Source of the DNA: Opitutus sp. ER46
Lineage (GTDB): Bacteria; Verrucomicrobiota; Verrucomicrobiia; Opitutales; Opitutaceae
Direction: 5' to 3'
Length of the DNA stretch: 64,000 bases
NCBI RefSeq assembly: GCF_003054705.1
Contig: NZ_QAYX01000020.1
Span: forward strand, 310,001 to 374,000
Within the stretch, counting starts at the first letter, position 1. The number at the start of each line of letters is the position of its first letter. Shown piece after piece: positions 43,545 through 50,211 of this stretch. Position numbers and translations under genes: made by a program. The notes beneath the pieces were generated by a model, which searched no databases, was not told the origin of the DNA, and worked only from the letters and a program-made list of their open reading frames with translations.

Positions 43545-43919
43545 GTGTCGAATTCAGTTACCGACTCAACCCCGTCCGTGCGCCAGATCATGCGTGGCTA
43601 CCCCGAGGAGACGATCCTCGCCTGCGCAGAGTTCAAGGCGACGCGACGGGACGACTCCTTTGAGCGCGCCTTCGCTGGCATCATAACGCACCACCTGCTG
43701 CAACCGCCGGCCCAGCCGGTTTCCGCGATGCCCGGCACCACCCGTCTTGTCGCCGACCTCGGGCTGGATTCGCTGACCATGGTCGAGATGGTGTCCATCT
43801 TCGAAGCCATCTTCGGCGTACGCCTTCGGGCCGATGACTTCGCGAGCGTGCGGACCCTCGACGAATTGCGCGCGCTCCTGCGCCGGAAGACCCAGTTGCC
43901 AGCGCGCGCCTCGGCATGA
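43545..43919 (+). CDS. Acyl carrier protein
   Basis: Encodes 124 residues from a GTG, longer than housekeeping ACP (about 78) because of an N-terminal extension of about 45 residues. The phosphopantetheine attachment motif G-L-D-S-L-T-M-V-E is clear. A later start at ATG 43590 would shorten the extension. Its stop overlaps the ketosynthase start (ATGA), so the two are coupled and likely work together in a dedicated acyl or polyketide pathway rather than in bulk fatty-acid synthesis. Confidence 0.85.
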   Translation: MSNSVTDSTPSVRQIMRGYPEETILACAEFKATRRDDSFERAFAGIITHHLLQPPAQPVSAMPGTTRLVADLGLDSLTMVEMVSIFEAIFGVRLRADDFASVRTLDELRALLRRKTQLPARASA

Positions 43920-45199
43920 GCCTGCCCTCTGCGCCCCGCCGCGTCGTTGTAACCGGCCTGGGGTTCATCACGAGCATCGGCAACGACCGTGCGACCGTCA
44001 CCCGGCACCTGCGGGAACTGCGCCACGGCCTCGAGCCGTTCGATTTCATCTCCGGTTCCGACCTGCCGGTGAAGGTCGCGGGTACCATCAAGGAATTCGA
44101 CACCCGATCCGACCATTACTCCGACTGGCGCTGGCCGGCCCGTTACACCTTCACGCGCGACGTCCTGCGCACGCTCCCGCCCCACGGCCTCCACGCCATC
44201 TGCGCCACTGACGAGGCGATCGCCGACGCCGGACTCGTGCGCGAGGATCTCGCGCGCGACGACACCGGCCTGTTCACGGCGTCCGCCGGGTCCCCCTTTC
44301 TCCAGCACAAGTATCTGGGCACGATGTACGACTCGAAGGGCGACCGGCTCGTGCCGCTCGGCGTCGTCGCAACCATCGCCGGCACCCTGAATTTCAATCT
44401 TTCCACGCGCTACGGCATGCGCGGCGCAGTCTGCGGCTTTGTCTCCGCCTGCGCGTCCACGTCACATGCGCTCGGCTACGCCTACGACGAGATTGCGCTC
44501 GGCCGGCTGGAACGTGTGATCGTTGTCGGGGGCGAGGACATCACCGCCGATTCCACCTACTCGTTCCACGCGGTGCGCGCCCTTTCGCGCAACCCCGACC
44601 CCGCCACGGCATCGCGGCCATTCGACACGGCGCGCGACGGGTTTGTCGGCAGCGGCGGCGGCGCCGCCCTCGTGCTCGAGTCCGCCGAGGCGGCCCAGGC
44701 CCGCGGCGCGCGGATTTATGCGGAGCTCGCCGGCTGGGGCCAGTCCGCCGACGGCTACAATATCGCGATCTCCGATCCCGAGGGCCGTGGGCTGGCGCTG
44801 GCGATGAAGCGGGCGCTCGCCGCCGCGCGCACCGCGCCGACCGAGGTCGACTACGTCAACGCCCACGCGACGTCGACGGTCGCAGGCGACCGCTCGGAGG
44901 CCCGCGCCCTCCGCACGATTTTCAGCGAGGCCGGCGCGACCCCGGCGATCAGCAGCACCAAGGCCCTCACCGGCCACGCGCTGTCGATGGCCGGCGTGAT
45001 GGAGACCGCGTTCTGCGCGGTTGCCATGGCCGAAGGCTTCATCCCGGGGCAGGCCCACCTCGTGAACCCCGATCCCGATTGCGAGGGTCTCAATATCCCG
45101 CGTGAAACCATCGCGCGGGCACCGAACGTGATCGTCAAAAACAGCAGCGGCTTCGGCGGCAGCAACGTGTCCCTCGTGCTCCGGCGCTGGCCGGCCTGA
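43916..45199 (+). CDS. FabF-like beta-ketoacyl-ACP synthase
   Basis: Encodes 427 residues. The catalytic triad is intact: C179 in S-A-C-A-S-T, H317 in N-A-H-A-T-S-T and H354 in G-H-A-L-S-M-A-G. The last two are spaced as in E. coli FabF. It condenses malonyl-ACP with an acyl-ACP. Translational coupling to a non-housekeeping ACP and the nearby phospholipid head-group genes point to a specialised lipid rather than general synthesis. It ends 14 bp before the convergent phosphotransferase gene. Confidence 0.92.
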   Translation: MSLPSAPRRVVVTGLGFITSIGNDRATVTRHLRELRHGLEPFDFISGSDLPVKVAGTIKEFDTRSDHYSDWRWPARYTFTRDVLRTLPPHGLHAICATDEAIADAGLVREDLARDDTGLFTASAGSPFLQHKYLGTMYDSKGDRLVPLGVVATIAGTLNFNLSTRYGMRGAVCGFVSACASTSHALGYAYDEIALGRLERVIVVGGEDITADSTYSFHAVRALSRNPDPATASRPFDTARDGFVGSGGGAALVLESAEAAQARGARIYAELAGWGQSADGYNIAISDPEGRGLALAMKRALAAARTAPTEVDYVNAHATSTVAGDRSEARALRTIFSEAGATPAISSTKALTGHALSMAGVMETAFCAVAMAEGFIPGQAHLVNPDPDCEGLNIPRETIARAPNVIVKNSSGFGGSNVSLVLRRWPA

Positions 45200-45213
45200 G
45201 CAAATCTCCCTCC

Positions 45214-46332
45214 CTACGCCACCGGCGGCGCCTCCGCCGGCTCGACGGCCGGCATGCCGCGCGCCGCCGGAGCGGCGAGTCGCCCCAGCCCGTTCCAGGG
45301 TCGGACGGCCGCCACCGCCAGCCACGCGAGCGCCACGAACTCCCAGTGGCGCGGCGCCAGCCCCTGCCCTTCCGCAAACGCGATCAGCAGCAGGAACAGC
45401 AGGGGCGCGCGATGCACCGCGGGCACCGATTCGTGGGCCAGATGGCTCACGATCACGCGGCCGGAATAGGAGGCCATCGCCGACGTGATCGCGATCGCCG
45501 CGATCCAGGCGTCGAGCCAGCCTTCCGTGCCCGCCCACGCGATCACGAGCAGAAGGAGGCAGAGCTCGAGCCACCGTGCGCGGGTCGTCGCCAGCCGTGC
45601 GCCCCCGAGCAGCGCGCCGCCCAACGTGAACGCCGCGGCAACCGCCAGCAACGCGGTCGAGCGGCTCATGTCCGCGAGCCCCACCGGATCCGAGAGCCAG
45701 TTCGCCGCCGCCGGCCAGGCCCACGCCAGCTGATAAATGCCGGCCACCGCCACGCCTTCGACCGGACCGACGCGTCCGAGATAGATTGCGCCCCGCTCCC
45801 GCTGTTCGAGCCACGTAGCCACCGTCGCAAAACTCGCGGCCGCCAGCAGCCCCAGCACGGCCGCCGTCGCGTGCGGCCCCCCCGGGCCCATCAACGCCGT
45901 CACGCCGATCACGAGCCCGACGTTCCAGGCGTCCAGCGCGTGGTCCAGAAACTCCCCCAGCGCGCAACTCGTGCCTTTCGCCCGCGCCCGCTGCCCGTCG
46001 ACGTGATCCAGCACGCAGTAAAACCACATCCCGGCCACCCACACCGGCGCGAGCGTCTCGCGCCAGCCGGGGGGCGTGAGCCACGCCGCCGCCGCCGTCA
46101 CCCACATCACCACCGAACCGAACACGGTCAGGGCGTTGGCCGACACCCCCGCCGGCACCTGCCGGTGCAGCCAGGCCGCCGGGCCGCGGCTGATCCAAGG
46201 GACCAGCAGCGAACGGTCATGGCAGCGATACGCATAGGCCGGGGCCGCCGGGCCCGAAGTCGGAACGGGATCCACGCTCCGACGTTGGTTGTTCGCGCCG
46301 CGGCCGGCAAGGTTCAAGGCCGACGTCTCCAT
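45214..46332 (-). CDS. CDP-alcohol phosphatidyltransferase, eukaryotic ethanolamine/choline-phosphotransferase-like
   Basis: Encodes 372 residues with about ten membrane helices. The family motif D-x2-D-G-x2-A-R-x8-G-x3-D-x3-D is perfect (D109, D112, G113, A116, R117, G126, D130, D134). The preceding YRCHDRSLLVPWISRG segment and the multi-helix C-terminus resemble eukaryotic CEPT/EPT enzymes, which use diacylglycerol as acceptor, more than short bacterial PgsA/PssA. Predicted to join a CDP-linked alcohol to a lipid. It lies 19 bp after the PAP2 gene on the same strand, in an operon. Confidence 0.85.
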   Translation of the reverse strand: METSALNLAGRGANNQRRSVDPVPTSGPAAPAYAYRCHDRSLLVPWISRGPAAWLHRQVPAGVSANALTVFGSVVMWVTAAAAWLTPPGWRETLAPVWVAGMWFYCVLDHVDGQRARAKGTSCALGEFLDHALDAWNVGLVIGVTALMGPGGPHATAAVLGLLAAASFATVATWLEQRERGAIYLGRVGPVEGVAVAGIYQLAWAWPAAANWLSDPVGLADMSRSTALLAVAAAFTLGGALLGGARLATTRARWLELCLLLLVIAWAGTEGWLDAWIAAIAITSAMASYSGRVIVSHLAHESVPAVHRAPLLFLLLIAFAEGQGLAPRHWEFVALAWLAVAAVRPWNGLGRLAAPAARGMPAVEPAEAPPVA

Positions 46333-46350
46333 GCCGCCACGACACTCGCC

Positions 46351-47253
46351 TCAGACGCCATTCTTCTCCGCGGCGCGCGCCCGCCGCCGCCACCACGCCC
46401 CGCCCACCGCGAACCCCAGCGCCACGAGGACCGCGTACGCCACGCCGGCCACGCCATCGACAATGTAATGGTGGTTCAGGTACGCCGAGGCCCAGGTCAC
46501 CACGAGCCAGTACGCCGTCGCGGGCCCGCGGAGCGCGCGAAAACGCCACGCGTACCAGGCGCCCAGGAAACTCTGCCCCACGTGCAGCGAGGGGATCGCG
46601 CCGAAGATGTTGGTGTTGCGCCCGTAGAAGTCCGCGAACCAGGTCACGCCGAACAGCGCATCGAACCGCGCCGCCCCCGCCGCTTCCGGCGCCGCGGCCA
46701 GGTTCACCGGACCGAAGCCGTAATGGTCGACGTACCAAGGCGGCGCCGCCGGATAGAGGAGGAACGTCGTGTAGGCCGCCAGGTTCAGCACCATCATCGC
46801 CCACATCGCCTCCAGCGCCTCGACGCGCCCCAGCCGGAACCGCCACCACGCCGCCAGGCCGAGGAACACCGGGATGAAGCCGAGGTACGCCACCCCCGCG
46901 ACCGCATCGAGGACCGGATGCGTGTGGCTCTGCCACCAATGCGCCAGCGTCACCGGTCCGTGTGCGCCCGGCAGGCCAAACCACGCCAGCTCCCACGCGT
47001 GCGGCTCGGCCACGTGCACCACCCCGCGCAACGCCTCGGCCCAGTAGCGTTGGGCGTCATACACCACCCCGATCACCAGCAGCGGCACGCAGAATCTGGC
47101 CAGCGGACGCAGCCGGCCCGGCGCCAGCCACAGGGCCAGCCCGGCGAGCGCGAGCCAGAGATTGTCCAGGCGCAGGCCGCCCAACAGCGCGTGCAGTCCG
47201 AGATACACGCCGGCGCCAAGCGCGCCCACTCCGAAGCGCTTCGCCGCGCTCAC
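46351..47253 (-). CDS. PAP2-superfamily membrane protein (inositol-phosphorylceramide synthase/AUR1-like)
   Basis: Encodes 300 residues from a GTG at 47253. It has about six helices with PAP2 motifs: I-P-S-L-H-V-G-Q (motif with catalytic His) and N-H-H-Y-I-V-D (second His and Asp). The upstream YDAQRYWAEALRGVVHVAEPHAWE and HTHPVLDAVAGVAYLGF segments resemble AUR1-type inositol-phosphoryl transferases rather than simple lipid phosphatases. It may transfer or remove a phospho-head-group. Operon with the EPT-like gene. The frame is open further upstream but that part is Arg/Gly-rich. Confidence 0.75.
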   Translation of the reverse strand: MSAAKRFGVGALGAGVYLGLHALLGGLRLDNLWLALAGLALWLAPGRLRPLARFCVPLLVIGVVYDAQRYWAEALRGVVHVAEPHAWELAWFGLPGAHGPVTLAHWWQSHTHPVLDAVAGVAYLGFIPVFLGLAAWWRFRLGRVEALEAMWAMMVLNLAAYTTFLLYPAAPPWYVDHYGFGPVNLAAAPEAAGAARFDALFGVTWFADFYGRNTNIFGAIPSLHVGQSFLGAWYAWRFRALRGPATAYWLVVTWASAYLNHHYIVDGVAGVAYAVLVALGFAVGGAWWRRRARAAEKNGV

Positions 47254-47457
47254 GCGCGCGGCCCTCCGACGCCCGTCGCCACGGCCGACCAGTGCCCGCC
47301 GCCCCCGCCCGGCACGGCGCCCGCCGGGCGGACACCTGCCGCCTGGGCGCGGCGGCAAGGCATCCGCCGCGCTTCTGGACCTGAAACCGGCTGGGGCAGC
47401 ACCATGCGCCCAGTCTGTTTGGAGTGAAACCGCGCTGTCGAGTGCCGGCTCGCAAAC

Positions 47458-48318
47458 ATGTCGACGGCGCTTCTGCCGCCCGCCTATGCTCCGCGCCAAC
47501 TTTTCGTCGCTTCCATGCCTTCGTGCGATGCCCTTTGCGGAGCCGCCCTACCCGTCGCGGCCGCCGCGCTCCTGCTCGCCGCCGCCGCCCGCGGTGCACC
47601 GGCGGACTACGCGCGCGTGCGGCGCGAAGGCGGCACGTTCTTCCTCCGCGAACGCGTGATGCAGCGCGGGTACGTCTGGATCGACGCCCTGGCGCGCGGC
47701 GCGGTCGCCGCCGGCCTGACCGCCAACGCGATCACCTGGCTGTCCTTCGTCCTCGGCGCCGCGGCCGGCATCTGCGCCGGACTGGGCTGGCTCGGCACCG
47801 CCGCGTGGGCGCTCGCGTTGAGCGGATTGTGCGACGGCGTCGACGGGGCCGTGGCGCGGCGAACCAGAGCCGCCTCACCCGCGGGCGCGGTGCTCGACTC
47901 GGCCCTCGACCGCTACGTCGAATTTTTCTTCATCGCCGGCCTGATCGTCTGGCTGCGTGGACACTGGGCCCACCAACTGGTCGCTGTCACCGCCCTGTTC
48001 GGCGGGTTTATGGTCACCTACTCGACCGCGAAGGCCGAGGCGCTCCAAGTCACGCCCCCGCGCGGCTGGATGAAGCGCCCCGAACGCATCGTCTGGCTGG
48101 TCGCCGGCTCCGCCTGCGCCGCCGCCGGCACGCTACTCGGCGTGCCCAGCCTGCATATCATCAGCGCCGTCCTCGCACTGATCGCCGTCTTCGCCCACGC
48201 CTCCGCATTCCTGCGGCTCCGCGCCCTCACTTTTGCCACCCGGCAGCGCGACCAGATCTCAGACGTCAGATGTCAGACGTCAGGGATCAGAGATCGGGCT
48301 CCGACATCCGACGTCTGA
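47458..48318 (+). CDS. CDP-alcohol phosphatidyltransferase (PgsA/PIP-synthase size)
   Basis: Encodes 286 residues; ATG 47515 is an alternative start. The catalytic motif is complete: D126, D129, G130, A133, R134, G143, D147, D151. About six helices follow. It resembles bacterial phosphatidylinositol-phosphate or glycerophosphate synthases in size. Given the inositol-phosphate synthase gene nearby, it is a candidate for making phosphatidylinositol phosphate; this is inference. The last 20 or so codons are read from an intergenic-type repeat (CAGACGTCAGATGTCAG), so the native C-terminus has probably been replaced. Confidence 0.82.
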   Translation: MSTALLPPAYAPRQLFVASMPSCDALCGAALPVAAAALLLAAAARGAPADYARVRREGGTFFLRERVMQRGYVWIDALARGAVAAGLTANAITWLSFVLGAAAGICAGLGWLGTAAWALALSGLCDGVDGAVARRTRAASPAGAVLDSALDRYVEFFFIAGLIVWLRGHWAHQLVAVTALFGGFMVTYSTAKAEALQVTPPRGWMKRPERIVWLVAGSACAAAGTLLGVPSLHIISAVLALIAVFAHASAFLRLRALTFATRQRDQISDVRCQTSGIRDRAPTSDV

Positions 48319-48386
48319 CTTCTGGCATCCGGCTTCTGGCCTCTGACGTCCGTCTTCAGCCTTCCGCCTTCAGCTTTCAGCCTTCG
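48252..48386. repeat. GGCTTCTGGC/CAGACGTC-type degenerate repeat
   Basis: CAGACGTCAGATGTCAGACGTCAGG on the left has a reverse-complement-like block (CCGACGTCTGA) at 48308-48318. It is then followed by CTTCTGGCATCCGGCTTCTGGCC words and CTTCAGCCTTCCGCC words. The same vocabulary recurs at 51075-51262. It forms the 3' ends of the genes on both sides. Confidence 0.65.
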
Positions 48387-48897
48387 CTTCCTTCAGTCGG
48401 AGCGAGCCGAGAATCGCAGCGAGCGCAGGCTCCTGATCGGTCATCCACTTCGCCGCGGACGTCTCGCTCATTGCGCTCGTCGTGGCGATGAGGCCGCAGA
48501 TGTACCCACGCTCTTCAAAGACAAACACGCGCGTCACCGAGTGAACGCCGTCAGGCGTGTGGCTGTAGAACAACGCGCCAACGCCTTCGCGGTCCGCGAA
48601 CGCGTTAGCTGCGACACCGCGTGCCCCCTCGCGCTTCAGCAACGTCTCGGCCATCCATGCCACATTGATCCGGCCGCGCTTCGGCACCTGCAGGAGCGAA
48701 AACGAGCCATGCCGTGAATAGGCAAAGAAGCGCGCCGGCACCTCCTTGCTCCCGGGCGCCGGCGCAACGTTCCCGCTCTACTTCCGTTCGCGCCAGCCGT
48801 CCGGCAAGGTGAGCGCAAACGTGCCGCGATCGACCGGAATCGCGGCGAACGCGAGCCCGGCGGCAAGCCACCAGAGCATAGTGAGGCGATGACGCAT
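48370..48897 (-). pseudogene. Secreted-protein gene interrupted by an in-frame amber codon
   Basis: From ATG 48897 the frame encodes a signal peptide (LTMLWWLAAGLAFAAIPV) and PDGWRERK. It then meets TAG at 48778-48780 (codon 40) and continues in the same frame for 136 more codons without another stop (SGNVAPAPGSKEVPARFF...). The downstream part reads as a normal alpha/beta domain. Because frame and composition carry through, I read it as one gene of about 175 codons with a nonsense mutation, sequencing error or readthrough site. A GTG at 48741 could restart translation, but without the signal peptide. The family is not recognised. Confidence 0.65.
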
Positions 48898-48960
48898 GCC
48901 AGAGGGAGAGAGGAATCGCGCCGCCGCGGGCCGGTGCCACGGCAACAGGAGCCGCCCGAC

Positions 48961-50211
48961 CTACAGCCAGGAGCGGAGTTGATCGTGGAGCGTGGCGAGT
49001 TCGATGTGGAGCTGGTTGCTGATCGTCTCGCCCGGGCGCGCCGCCGGCGACTTGAAGTACGACGCCAGCCAGGACTGGACGCCGGAGGCCTTCTTGCGCG
49101 CGGCGAGATCGGTGAACAGCGCAAGGTCGAGCACGAGCGGCGCCGCCAGGATCGAGTCGCGGCACTCGAAGTTGATCTTCAGCTCCATCTCATAGCCCAG
49201 CCAACCGAAGAGCTGGATCGCGTCCCATGCCTCCTTGTTGTCCCCCTTCGGCGGGAAATAGTTGATGTGCACCTGGTGCGTCAGGTCGCCGTACAGCTCC
49301 GGGTAACGCTGCGCGTCGAAGATGTCCGACAGCACCCCACCCTTGGTGATTTCCTTGGCGCGGAAGTTGTCCGGCGCATGCAGCACGAGGCCATCGCGGT
49401 TGCCGAGGATGTTCGTGCTGTACCAGCCGCGGATGCCAAGCAGGCGCTGCGCGAGGCCCGTGGCCACCACGGTTTTCATGAGCGTCTGGCCGCTCTTGAG
49501 ATCGGAGCCGCAGATCGGCAGTCCGCGCGCAGTGGCGATCGCCTGCAGCGCCGGGACTTCGGGCACCTGGTTGGGCGTGCAGTTCACGACCGGGCAACCC
49601 GCCTCGAGCGCCGCCCAGGCGTAGATCTGCGCGGGAGAAATCGCGGGATCGCTGCGCTTGAGGCCGGCCAGGAAGCTCTCCGGCGTGGCATGCACCGCGG
49701 TCTGGCTACGCCAAGCCTCGGTTGAAAGCGTCAGCAGGACGACGCCACGCGCGCATTTCCCGTCCGCGAGAAATCGCCGGATCTCGCCCGCCATCGCCTG
49801 GGCGAGTTCGAACTTGGTCTTCTCCGCGCGCACATTCTTCGGCTTGAGGTTGCCGATGTAGGCCGGATCAAACACGCCCGGGCCGACCTTGATCGTCGCG
49901 AGGAAATCCTGCGCCAAGGCCAGGTCTGTGGGATTCAACACCGCCGCCGTACGGGCCGCATCGGCGGCATTGGTCTCGAGCAGGTCCACACCGCCGAAAA
50001 CAATATCCGTCAGCCGAGCCACCGGGAGGGCGTCGCTCACCCGCACGGAAGTGCCGTCCGGCCGTTCGAGAAATCCCATCTGGGTAAAGGATCCAACCGC
50101 GGGGCGTACACCACGTCGGATCAATTCCACGCCGGACATCAGGGTTGAAGCGACGGCACCCACGCCGACCGCGAACACCCCGAGCCGCCCATTGCTTGGC
50201 TCGGTACTCAT
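48961..50211 (-). CDS. myo-Inositol-1(3)-phosphate synthase
   Basis: Encodes 416 residues. It converts glucose-6-phosphate to inositol-phosphate using NAD. The N-terminal nucleotide-binding segment is LGVFAVGVGAVASTLMSGVEL. Signature blocks are GSDLKSGQT (substrate loop, matching the D-x-K-S-G-Q-T of eukaryotic MIPS) and NILGNRDGLVL (matching N-x-L-G-N-x-D-G). Such synthases in bacteria supply inositol for phosphatidylinositol or soluble inositol derivatives. Within 6 kb are two CDP-alcohol phosphatidyltransferases and a PAP2 protein, supporting the lipid role. ATG 50211 is preferred over 50223. Confidence 0.92.
   Translation of the reverse strand: MSTEPSNGRLGVFAVGVGAVASTLMSGVELIRRGVRPAVGSFTQMGFLERPDGTSVRVSDALPVARLTDIVFGGVDLLETNAADAARTAAVLNPTDLALAQDFLATIKVGPGVFDPAYIGNLKPKNVRAEKTKFELAQAMAGEIRRFLADGKCARGVVLLTLSTEAWRSQTAVHATPESFLAGLKRSDPAISPAQIYAWAALEAGCPVVNCTPNQVPEVPALQAIATARGLPICGSDLKSGQTLMKTVVATGLAQRLLGIRGWYSTNILGNRDGLVLHAPDNFRAKEITKGGVLSDIFDAQRYPELYGDLTHQVHINYFPPKGDNKEAWDAIQLFGWLGYEMELKINFECRDSILAAPLVLDLALFTDLAARKKASGVQSWLASYFKSPAARPGETISNQLHIELATLHDQLRSWL

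Follow-up and report, generated by a model that had tools for sequence, protein, structure and literature searches.

We analysed a stretch of 64,000 nucleotides from Opitutus sp. ER46 (contig NZ_QAYX01000020.1, positions 310,001 to 374,000 of the forward strand), called the window below, and in it a locus of six genes between positions 43,545 and 50,211. The locus encodes an acyl carrier protein (ACP), a ketosynthase (KS), two CDP-alcohol transferases, a PAP2-family enzyme resembling the inositol phosphorylceramide synthase AUR1, and a myo-inositol-phosphate synthase (MIPS). The grouping of these genes is more than chance, since MIPS and the phosphatidylinositol-phosphate synthase-like (PIPS-like) transferase are present in all seven genomes of the family that bear the PAP2 gene. 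As judged from the sequences, a pathway for unusual inositol membrane lipids is probably real. The features of the locus are as follows.

43545..43919 (start may be 43578), + strand: ACP; PP-binding domain (E 5e-8), DSL motif
43916..45199, + strand: FabF-like KS; ketoacyl-synt domains, Cys-His-His intact
45214..46332, - strand: CEPT-like CDP-alcohol phosphotransferase; CDP-OH_P_transf domain (PF01066, E 2.3e-7), motif DHVDGQRAR...GEFLDHALD
46351..47253, - strand: AUR1-like PAP2_3 enzyme; PAP2_3 domain (E 1.8e-21)
47458..48318, + strand: PIPS-like CDP-alcohol phosphatidyltransferase, between PAP2 and MIPS; motif DGVDGAVAR...GAVLDSALD
48370..48777, - strand: small uncharacterised frame separating PIPS from MIPS, without Pfam or NCBIfam match
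48961..50211, - strand: MIPS; NAD_binding_5 (E 5.7e-60) and Inos-1-P_synth (E 2.1e-32) domains

All six genes are open frames with coding-type scores, and all motifs that we looked for are kept. The ACP and KS genes overlap by 4 bases. Both CDP-alcohol enzymes carry the DxxDGxxAR...GxxxDxxxD motif. The sequence-only reading of this DNA had listed the same six genes, and we found all of them at about the positions it gave, with the catalytic motif it reported for the CEPT-like enzyme. Two other long frames on the + strand were rejected as genes, as both display a non-coding codon-position composition: 45346-47427, opposite the CEPT-like and PAP2 genes, and 47424-48491, out of frame with PIPS.

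For comparison we surveyed one genome per species (84,980 species), which gave at least 557 relatives of the PAP2 enzyme, and examined the best 80 PAP2-centred loci; some come from the same genome and many are cut by contig ends, so that gene counts in them are lower bounds. The small frame at 48370-48777 had no homologue in the 80 loci except in copies of the window locus itself, and is probably not part of the system. The flanking genes for GH31, KDPG aldolase and HU are taken as unrelated because they found no match in these 80 loci.

An AUR1-like enzyme next to inositol-phosphate genes

The AUR1-like character that the sequence-only reading ascribed to the PAP2 protein was borne out. A profile of its family searched against PDB matched AUR1 chains only (two distinct sequences, E ~1e-24). 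Its predicted structure (mean pLDDT 93.8) had only two PDB matches at E<=0.001 in a fold search, both of them AUR1 (TM 0.69 by query length). By fold the best E-value to AUR1 was 1.1e-9, compared with 0.04 or worse for PAP2-type phosphatases. AUR1 (PDB 9ivc, 9vj4) is thus the best match by sequence and by fold; the two enzymes have in common the PAP2 fold and the PAAPPWY, PSLH and HHYxxD elements, but are only 25% identical in the fold alignment. In the window protein, the PSLH and HHYxxD elements retain their two His and the Asp, which we take to be catalytic. With the NCBIfam model for phosphoinositol dihydroceramide synthase (NF052609) it reached an E-value of 1.3e-41 and 143 bits, and did not reach the curated score of 480; three homologues scanned in the same way were also below this cut-off (151, 135 and 346 bits). 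On the basis of its sequence and modelled structure, we propose that the PAP2 enzyme is an inositol-phosphoryl transferase.

MIPS has its best PDB match in 7nwr, the Bacteroides protein BT_1526 (E 6.2e-108), and a search for its family across the whole host genome gave one match. The PIPS-like enzyme matched the NCBIfam models for archaetidylinositol-phosphate synthase (E 4.9e-32) and PIPSynBT1523 (E 1.5e-26; 93.5 bits, below the cut-off of 350) and, in PDB, the mycobacterial enzyme 6h53 (E 2.7e-11). In an alignment of six sequences the catalytic motif is invariant, and all six also share a W-M-K-R-x-E-R stretch.

We considered whether the products of the locus are limited to ordinary phosphatidylinositol (PI), a glycerolipid, or to soluble inositol compounds, the PAP2 protein then being a phosphatase, for example the missing phosphatase for phosphatidylinositol phosphate (PIP). 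The PAP2 superfamily includes lipid phosphatases, which are the weaker matches in our fold search, the locus contains no dedicated PIP phosphatase, and the host genome has no gene of the ceramide-synthase type described below. However, the profile and fold matches point to AUR1, with phosphatases far behind, and in some loci the PAP2 homologues adjoin genes of the serine palmitoyltransferase (SPT) type and of the N-acyltransferase type (the latter in 18 of the best 80 loci). We regard this explanation as unlikely.

Conservation of the neighbourhood

Strong PAP2 matches were found in seven of 120 Opitutaceae genomes, namely the host and six relatives (G037, G041, G044, G075, G107 and G115). In a sample of 387 genomes of the phylum there were six, all Opitutaceae. 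Weak matches were left out of both counts (G068, one of eight in the family; G302 and G026, two of eight in the phylum). We read 27-39 kb around the PAP2 gene in each of the six relatives. All six have both MIPS and PIPS, in five of them on the same contig as PAP2; in G107 the two are on a separate contig of 4.5 kb. The CEPT-like gene is present in five of the six and the ACP/KS pair in four (G037, G044, G107, G115); no ACP/KS pair was found in G041 and G075 over ~75 kb each. A seventh relative, G447, likewise has the cluster. Wherever MIPS, PIPS and PAP2 are on one contig, their order and orientation are common to the window and the relatives. These counts support the earlier idea of an inositol-lipid neighbourhood as in Bacteroidetes with additional CEPT-like and ACP/KS genes, and its conservation among relatives. 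The idea was largely right, and we narrow it to a putative AUR1-type inositol-phosphoryl sphingolipid pathway in a rare neighbourhood. None of the four further genomes sampled from the genus gave a MIPS, PAP2 or CEPT match, and the locus therefore appears patchy, either gained by transfer or often lost.

The MIPS of the relatives' clusters belong to two types. G044 and G115 have a BT-like enzyme, whereas G041, G037, G075, G107 and G447 have the type of PDB 1gr0 (which we take to be mycobacterial Ino1), an assignment for which the PDB was searched with the G041 member. Since two MIPS types are swapped within the same cluster, inositol phosphate would be what the cluster needs. A search of the family with the window MIPS gave ten matches, of which three are full-length; the other seven (29-31% over half of the protein) belong to the other type.

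In the six relatives the genes form part of a cluster of ~20-30 kb that also contains a polyketide synthase (PKS)-SPT-like hybrid, a ceramide-synthase-type gene, a reductase and a DevBCA-type exporter. We annotated G041 as the representative. Its cluster contains a TolC-type outer-membrane protein, DevB, two DevC, DevA with a cyclic-nucleotide domain, PAP2 and a protein of 373 aa (F7), as well as a 1312-aa KS-ACP-dehydratase-alpha-oxoamine synthase hybrid (L016:3442-7380), a short-chain reductase (SDR), PIPS, LicD and MIPS (L016:9711-10973). A GINT1_N (glucosamine inositolphosphorylceramide transferase) protein, Stealth, GT4, VTT and the CEPT-like gene are also present. DevBCA exporters export heterocyst glycolipids in cyanobacteria. 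Among named strains, Verrucomicrobia bacterium IMCC26134 (L098) carries the larger cluster.

The only domain match of F7 is a weak one to GNAT (E 7e-4). In Chryseosolibacter (L139) the gene before the F7 homologue is an alpha-oxoamine synthase scoring above the curated SPT cut-off (655 bits, cut-off 640); after the F7 homologue come an epimerase-type reductase and, further on, MIPS, PgpA, PIPS and PAP2. The same row of an SPT-like gene (609 bits, under the cut-off), an F7 homologue and an epimerase-type reductase was found in the Opitutaceae genome G060 (L173), in which neither the PAP2 nor the MIPS of the window had a match. Because of the operon with SPT in Chryseosolibacter and the same gene order in G060, we read F7 as a bacterial N-acyltransferase of what we presume to be the 'ceramide synthase' type. 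Since the relatives' clusters carry both this gene and the PKS-SPT-like hybrid, the product class is likely an inositol-phosphoryl sphingolipid, and the gene content suggests that in the relatives it is probably glycosylated. For the host, a glycosylated product was set aside: the one GINT1_N match is under the cut-off (21 bits, cut-off 27), and the same search passed it in four of six genomes, with none in G044 despite its cluster. In G026 (L176) a ceramide-synthase-type gene adjoins a divergent PAP2-like protein (profile E 3.3e-6), and G043 (L177) and G031 (L178) look alike by eye.

Outside the phylum the core genes are also found together. The best 80 of the at least 557 PAP2 loci include 10 verrucomicrobial ones; among the other 70, at least 32 have MIPS, at least 44 have PIPS and at least 31 have both, including myxobacterial, Bacteriovoracaceae, Bacteroidota and Leptospiraceae loci. 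MIPS, PAP2 and PIPS lie together in Myxococcus xanthus (L166), for which ceramide phosphoryl-myo-inositol is mentioned, as a cited result, in a passage of PMC9246714.

The two additions, the CEPT-like gene and the ACP/KS pair, are also linked to the cluster. The best PDB match of the CEPT-like protein by sequence was CEPT1 (8gyw, E 1.3e-10), and cholinephosphotransferases were also matched. Its structure model is weak (mean pLDDT 60), and the four best fold matches of this low-confidence model were CEPT1/CHPT1 (8gyw, 8ul9) over ~370 columns, i.e. full length, with TM 0.45-0.58. The CDP-alcohol motif is common to these enzymes and the window protein, but the sequence match to CEPT1 lies mainly over the catalytic half (residues 32-200). 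Within the family sample, matches to the window CEPT were confined to genomes bearing the cluster (6/120); in the phylum sample eight of 387 genomes matched in all, including two weak matches elsewhere. In G115, which has no CEPT match, a different CDP-alcohol transferase (L199:15108-15842, - strand) comes directly after ACP-KS, at the place of the window's CEPT. The window ACP is 46-52% identical to the cluster ACPs of G037, G044 and G107 and 49% to that of G115. We also considered that the pair is merely the one found on contig C19 of the host (see below). This was rejected, as the window KS is 57% identical to the C19 KS and 67-70% to the KS of the four relatives' clusters, with which it groups in the tree, apart from the C19-type KS (support 0.983). 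The KS of a compact locus, L095, falls outside this group. In three actinobacterial loci with PAP2 homologues 45-52% identical to that of the window (L093 Streptosporangium, L096 Actinokineospora, L101 Virgisporangium), a KS-like match (33-37%) begins 1.5-2 kb upstream of the PAP2 homologue.

Proposed pathway and the acceptor lipid

Taken together, the sequences make it fairly likely that an AUR1-type route in this locus leads to an inositol-phosphoryl membrane lipid. MIPS would convert glucose 6-phosphate to inositol phosphate, and the PIPS-like enzyme would join it with CDP-diacylglycerol to give PIP. A phosphatase encoded outside the locus would then release PI, and the AUR1-like PAP2 would transfer the head group from PI to an acceptor lipid, yielding the inositol-phosphoryl lipid and diacylglycerol. 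The acceptor would most likely be of the sphingoid or ceramide type, made by genes outside the locus. The ACP/KS pair would probably serve to make or lengthen a special acyl chain of the lipid, and the CEPT-like enzyme would probably attach or exchange a second phospho-alcohol head group. We infer the MIPS, PIPS and PAP2 steps from homology and from Bacteroides genetics: knock-outs described in portions of PMC9246714 and PMC8791184 show that Bacteroides requires BT_1522, BT_1523 and BT_1526 to make inositol ceramide. The relevant part of PMC12275187, on ceramide diphosphoglycerate in Caulobacter, proposes a CDP-linked donor for the head group of a bacterial ceramide lipid. Bacteroides makes an ethanolamine phosphoceramide for which the corresponding part of PMC8791184 reports no match to the eukaryotic synthase, so that a gap of a known type would be closed by a CEPT-like enzyme working on lipids of this sort.

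Several observations weigh against this pathway. The PAP2 and PIPS-like proteins are under every curated NCBIfam cut-off. No PIP phosphatase (PgpA-like, BT_1525) was found in the locus, to which this search was confined. MIPS of the 1gr0 type occurs in three other family genomes (G097, G034, G052) with no PIPS or PAP2 within ~7.5-10 kb, and MIPS alone therefore need not mean an inositol-lipid pathway. The CEPT-like homologues of the five family clusters are 33-36% identical to the window protein, compared with 57-61% for PAP2, and three of them have Ser in place of the window's motif Ala; judging by these sequences, the CEPT-like enzyme of the window may differ in activity from its cluster counterparts. 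The PKS-alpha-oxoamine synthase hybrid is absent from the host genome (5.7 Mb, rated 100% complete), and the ceramide-synthase type (F7) was not found there either by a single sequence or by a ten-row profile. The same profile matched 18 of the 120 family genomes, including the six cluster-bearing relatives; 13 of these matches are full-length and five are partial and weak (G028, G035, G042, G083, G097). Since no ceramide-synthase-type gene could be detected in the host, the acceptor lipid can only be presumed. In G097 a cluster-type SDR (81% identical) adjoins the 1gr0-type MIPS (L018:6836-8845), with no PIPS or PAP2 in the stretch that was read.

The window locus also contains no DevBCA-type exporter (searched in the locus only). 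As read from its genes, it is a compact variant of the relatives' larger cluster, without the extras of the latter. Alternatively, it could be a decaying remnant of that cluster which has lost the N-acyltransferase type, the hybrid and the exporter and now makes no complete product. Such decay would fit the larger cluster of the six relatives and the lack of the N-acyltransferase type and the hybrid in the host, as well as the four same-genus genomes without MIPS, PAP2 and CEPT matches. It would also fit the stretch 48370-48960 (- strand) between PIPS and MIPS, where an in-frame TAG lies upstream of the small frame. Nevertheless, each of the six reading frames is open, scores as coding and keeps the motifs looked for, and other compact versions exist. 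L095 has KS, ACP, LicD, MIPS, PIPS, the N-acyltransferase type and PAP2, L114 keeps F7, and neither has a hybrid within 20.8 kb; the three synthase matches in each of the two genomes are one of the C19 type, Kbl and one divergent. We therefore consider decay improbable, rather more so than the phosphatase explanation, and keep the compact-variant reading.

As a source of the acceptor we inspected the alpha-oxoamine synthases of the host genome, of which there are two, on contigs C23 and C19. The C23 enzyme was rejected as a sphingoid-base enzyme; it groups with sequences labelled Kbl and adjoins, by eye, an apparent threonine dehydrogenase. Contig C23 also carries a run of very large genes (C23:641239-659333, L056; 1056 to 2106 aa) that by eye resembles a non-ribosomal peptide synthetase/PKS cluster. 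The C19 synthase sits on a long branch among the SPTs, separated from Kbl with support 0.95, and scores best to the Bacteroidota SPT model (385 bits, cut-off 640). Its locus (C19:107729-117098; L052, L053) contains an SDR, the KS compared above and an ACP-FabZ-like fusion, so that the types of activity combined in the relatives' hybrid are present here as separate genes; glycosyltransferases are found there as well. From this gene content, the C19 locus could supply a sphingoid-type base, possibly an unsaturated one if serine condenses with an enoyl thioester.

The view that the C19 enzyme is simply a ceramide-type SPT was set aside: it is nearly family-wide, with some match in 113 of the 120 family genomes (106 at E <1e-150, counted by hand), in contrast to the ceramide-synthase type. 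That KS, ACP-dehydratase and SDR always lie beside the synthase was also rejected, as they were seen in two of eight other stretches (G003, G020) and not in the remaining six, of which that of G037 ends before the expected place. A more specific form of the pathway is that the AUR1-type enzyme acts on an acceptor other than dihydroceramide, built by the ACP/KS of the locus and the C19 synthase without the usual N-acyl chain of ceramide synthase and decorated by the CEPT-like enzyme. We put this forward tentatively, as a minority possibility.

Relation to known systems

The closest characterised system is the BT_1522-1526 cluster of Bacteroides thetaiotaomicron, in which, according to the sections of PMC9246714 and PMC8791184 that describe it, MIPS, a PIP synthase with the same motif and an AUR1-like phosphoinositol transferase are found together. 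A PIP synthase with the DX2DGX2AR...GX3DX3D motif and MIPS are likewise in the window locus. In contrast to the Bacteroides cluster, the window locus has no visible BT_1525-like PIP phosphatase or BT_1524-like GtrA gene, adds the CEPT-like and ACP/KS genes, has its genes on both strands and belongs to a different phylum. The locus appears to work like the Bacteroides cluster but differs in two tested features, the lack of a PIP phosphatase in the cluster and a PAP2 enzyme under the curated score.

The relatives' clusters resemble the SgaAB sphingolipid cluster of Pseudomonas fluorescens, as outlined in part of PMC12134224, in combining PKS with alpha-oxoamine synthase. In G041, however, the two are fused in one protein, and the host has no such hybrid. 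Neither 'inositol' nor 'Verrucomicrobi' occurs in the main text of that paper. A passage of PMC11334938 reports that 22 Verrucomicrobiota genomes from the Black Sea encode Spt-like proteins. Among the titles and abstract beginnings of open-licence PubMed Central papers, we found none on inositol sphingolipids in Verrucomicrobiota.

The enzymes of the locus resemble the fungal machinery that attaches inositol phosphate to sphingolipids. The core trio of MIPS, PIPS and PAP2, whose genetic dissection in Bacteroides is described in parts of PMC9246714 and PMC8791184, is now found in Verrucomicrobiota. In the relatives of the host this trio is joined with a PKS-SPT-like hybrid, glycosyltransferases and a DevBCA-type exporter, a combination that resembles a bacterial equivalent of the glycosylated inositol sphingolipids known from fungi and plants. 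The host would allow a clean test, as its genome encodes an AUR1-type enzyme but no ceramide synthase that we could recognise. If the acceptor were indeed something other than dihydroceramide, the product would be, as far as we know, an inositol-phosphoryl lipid class new to bacteria and eukaryotes.

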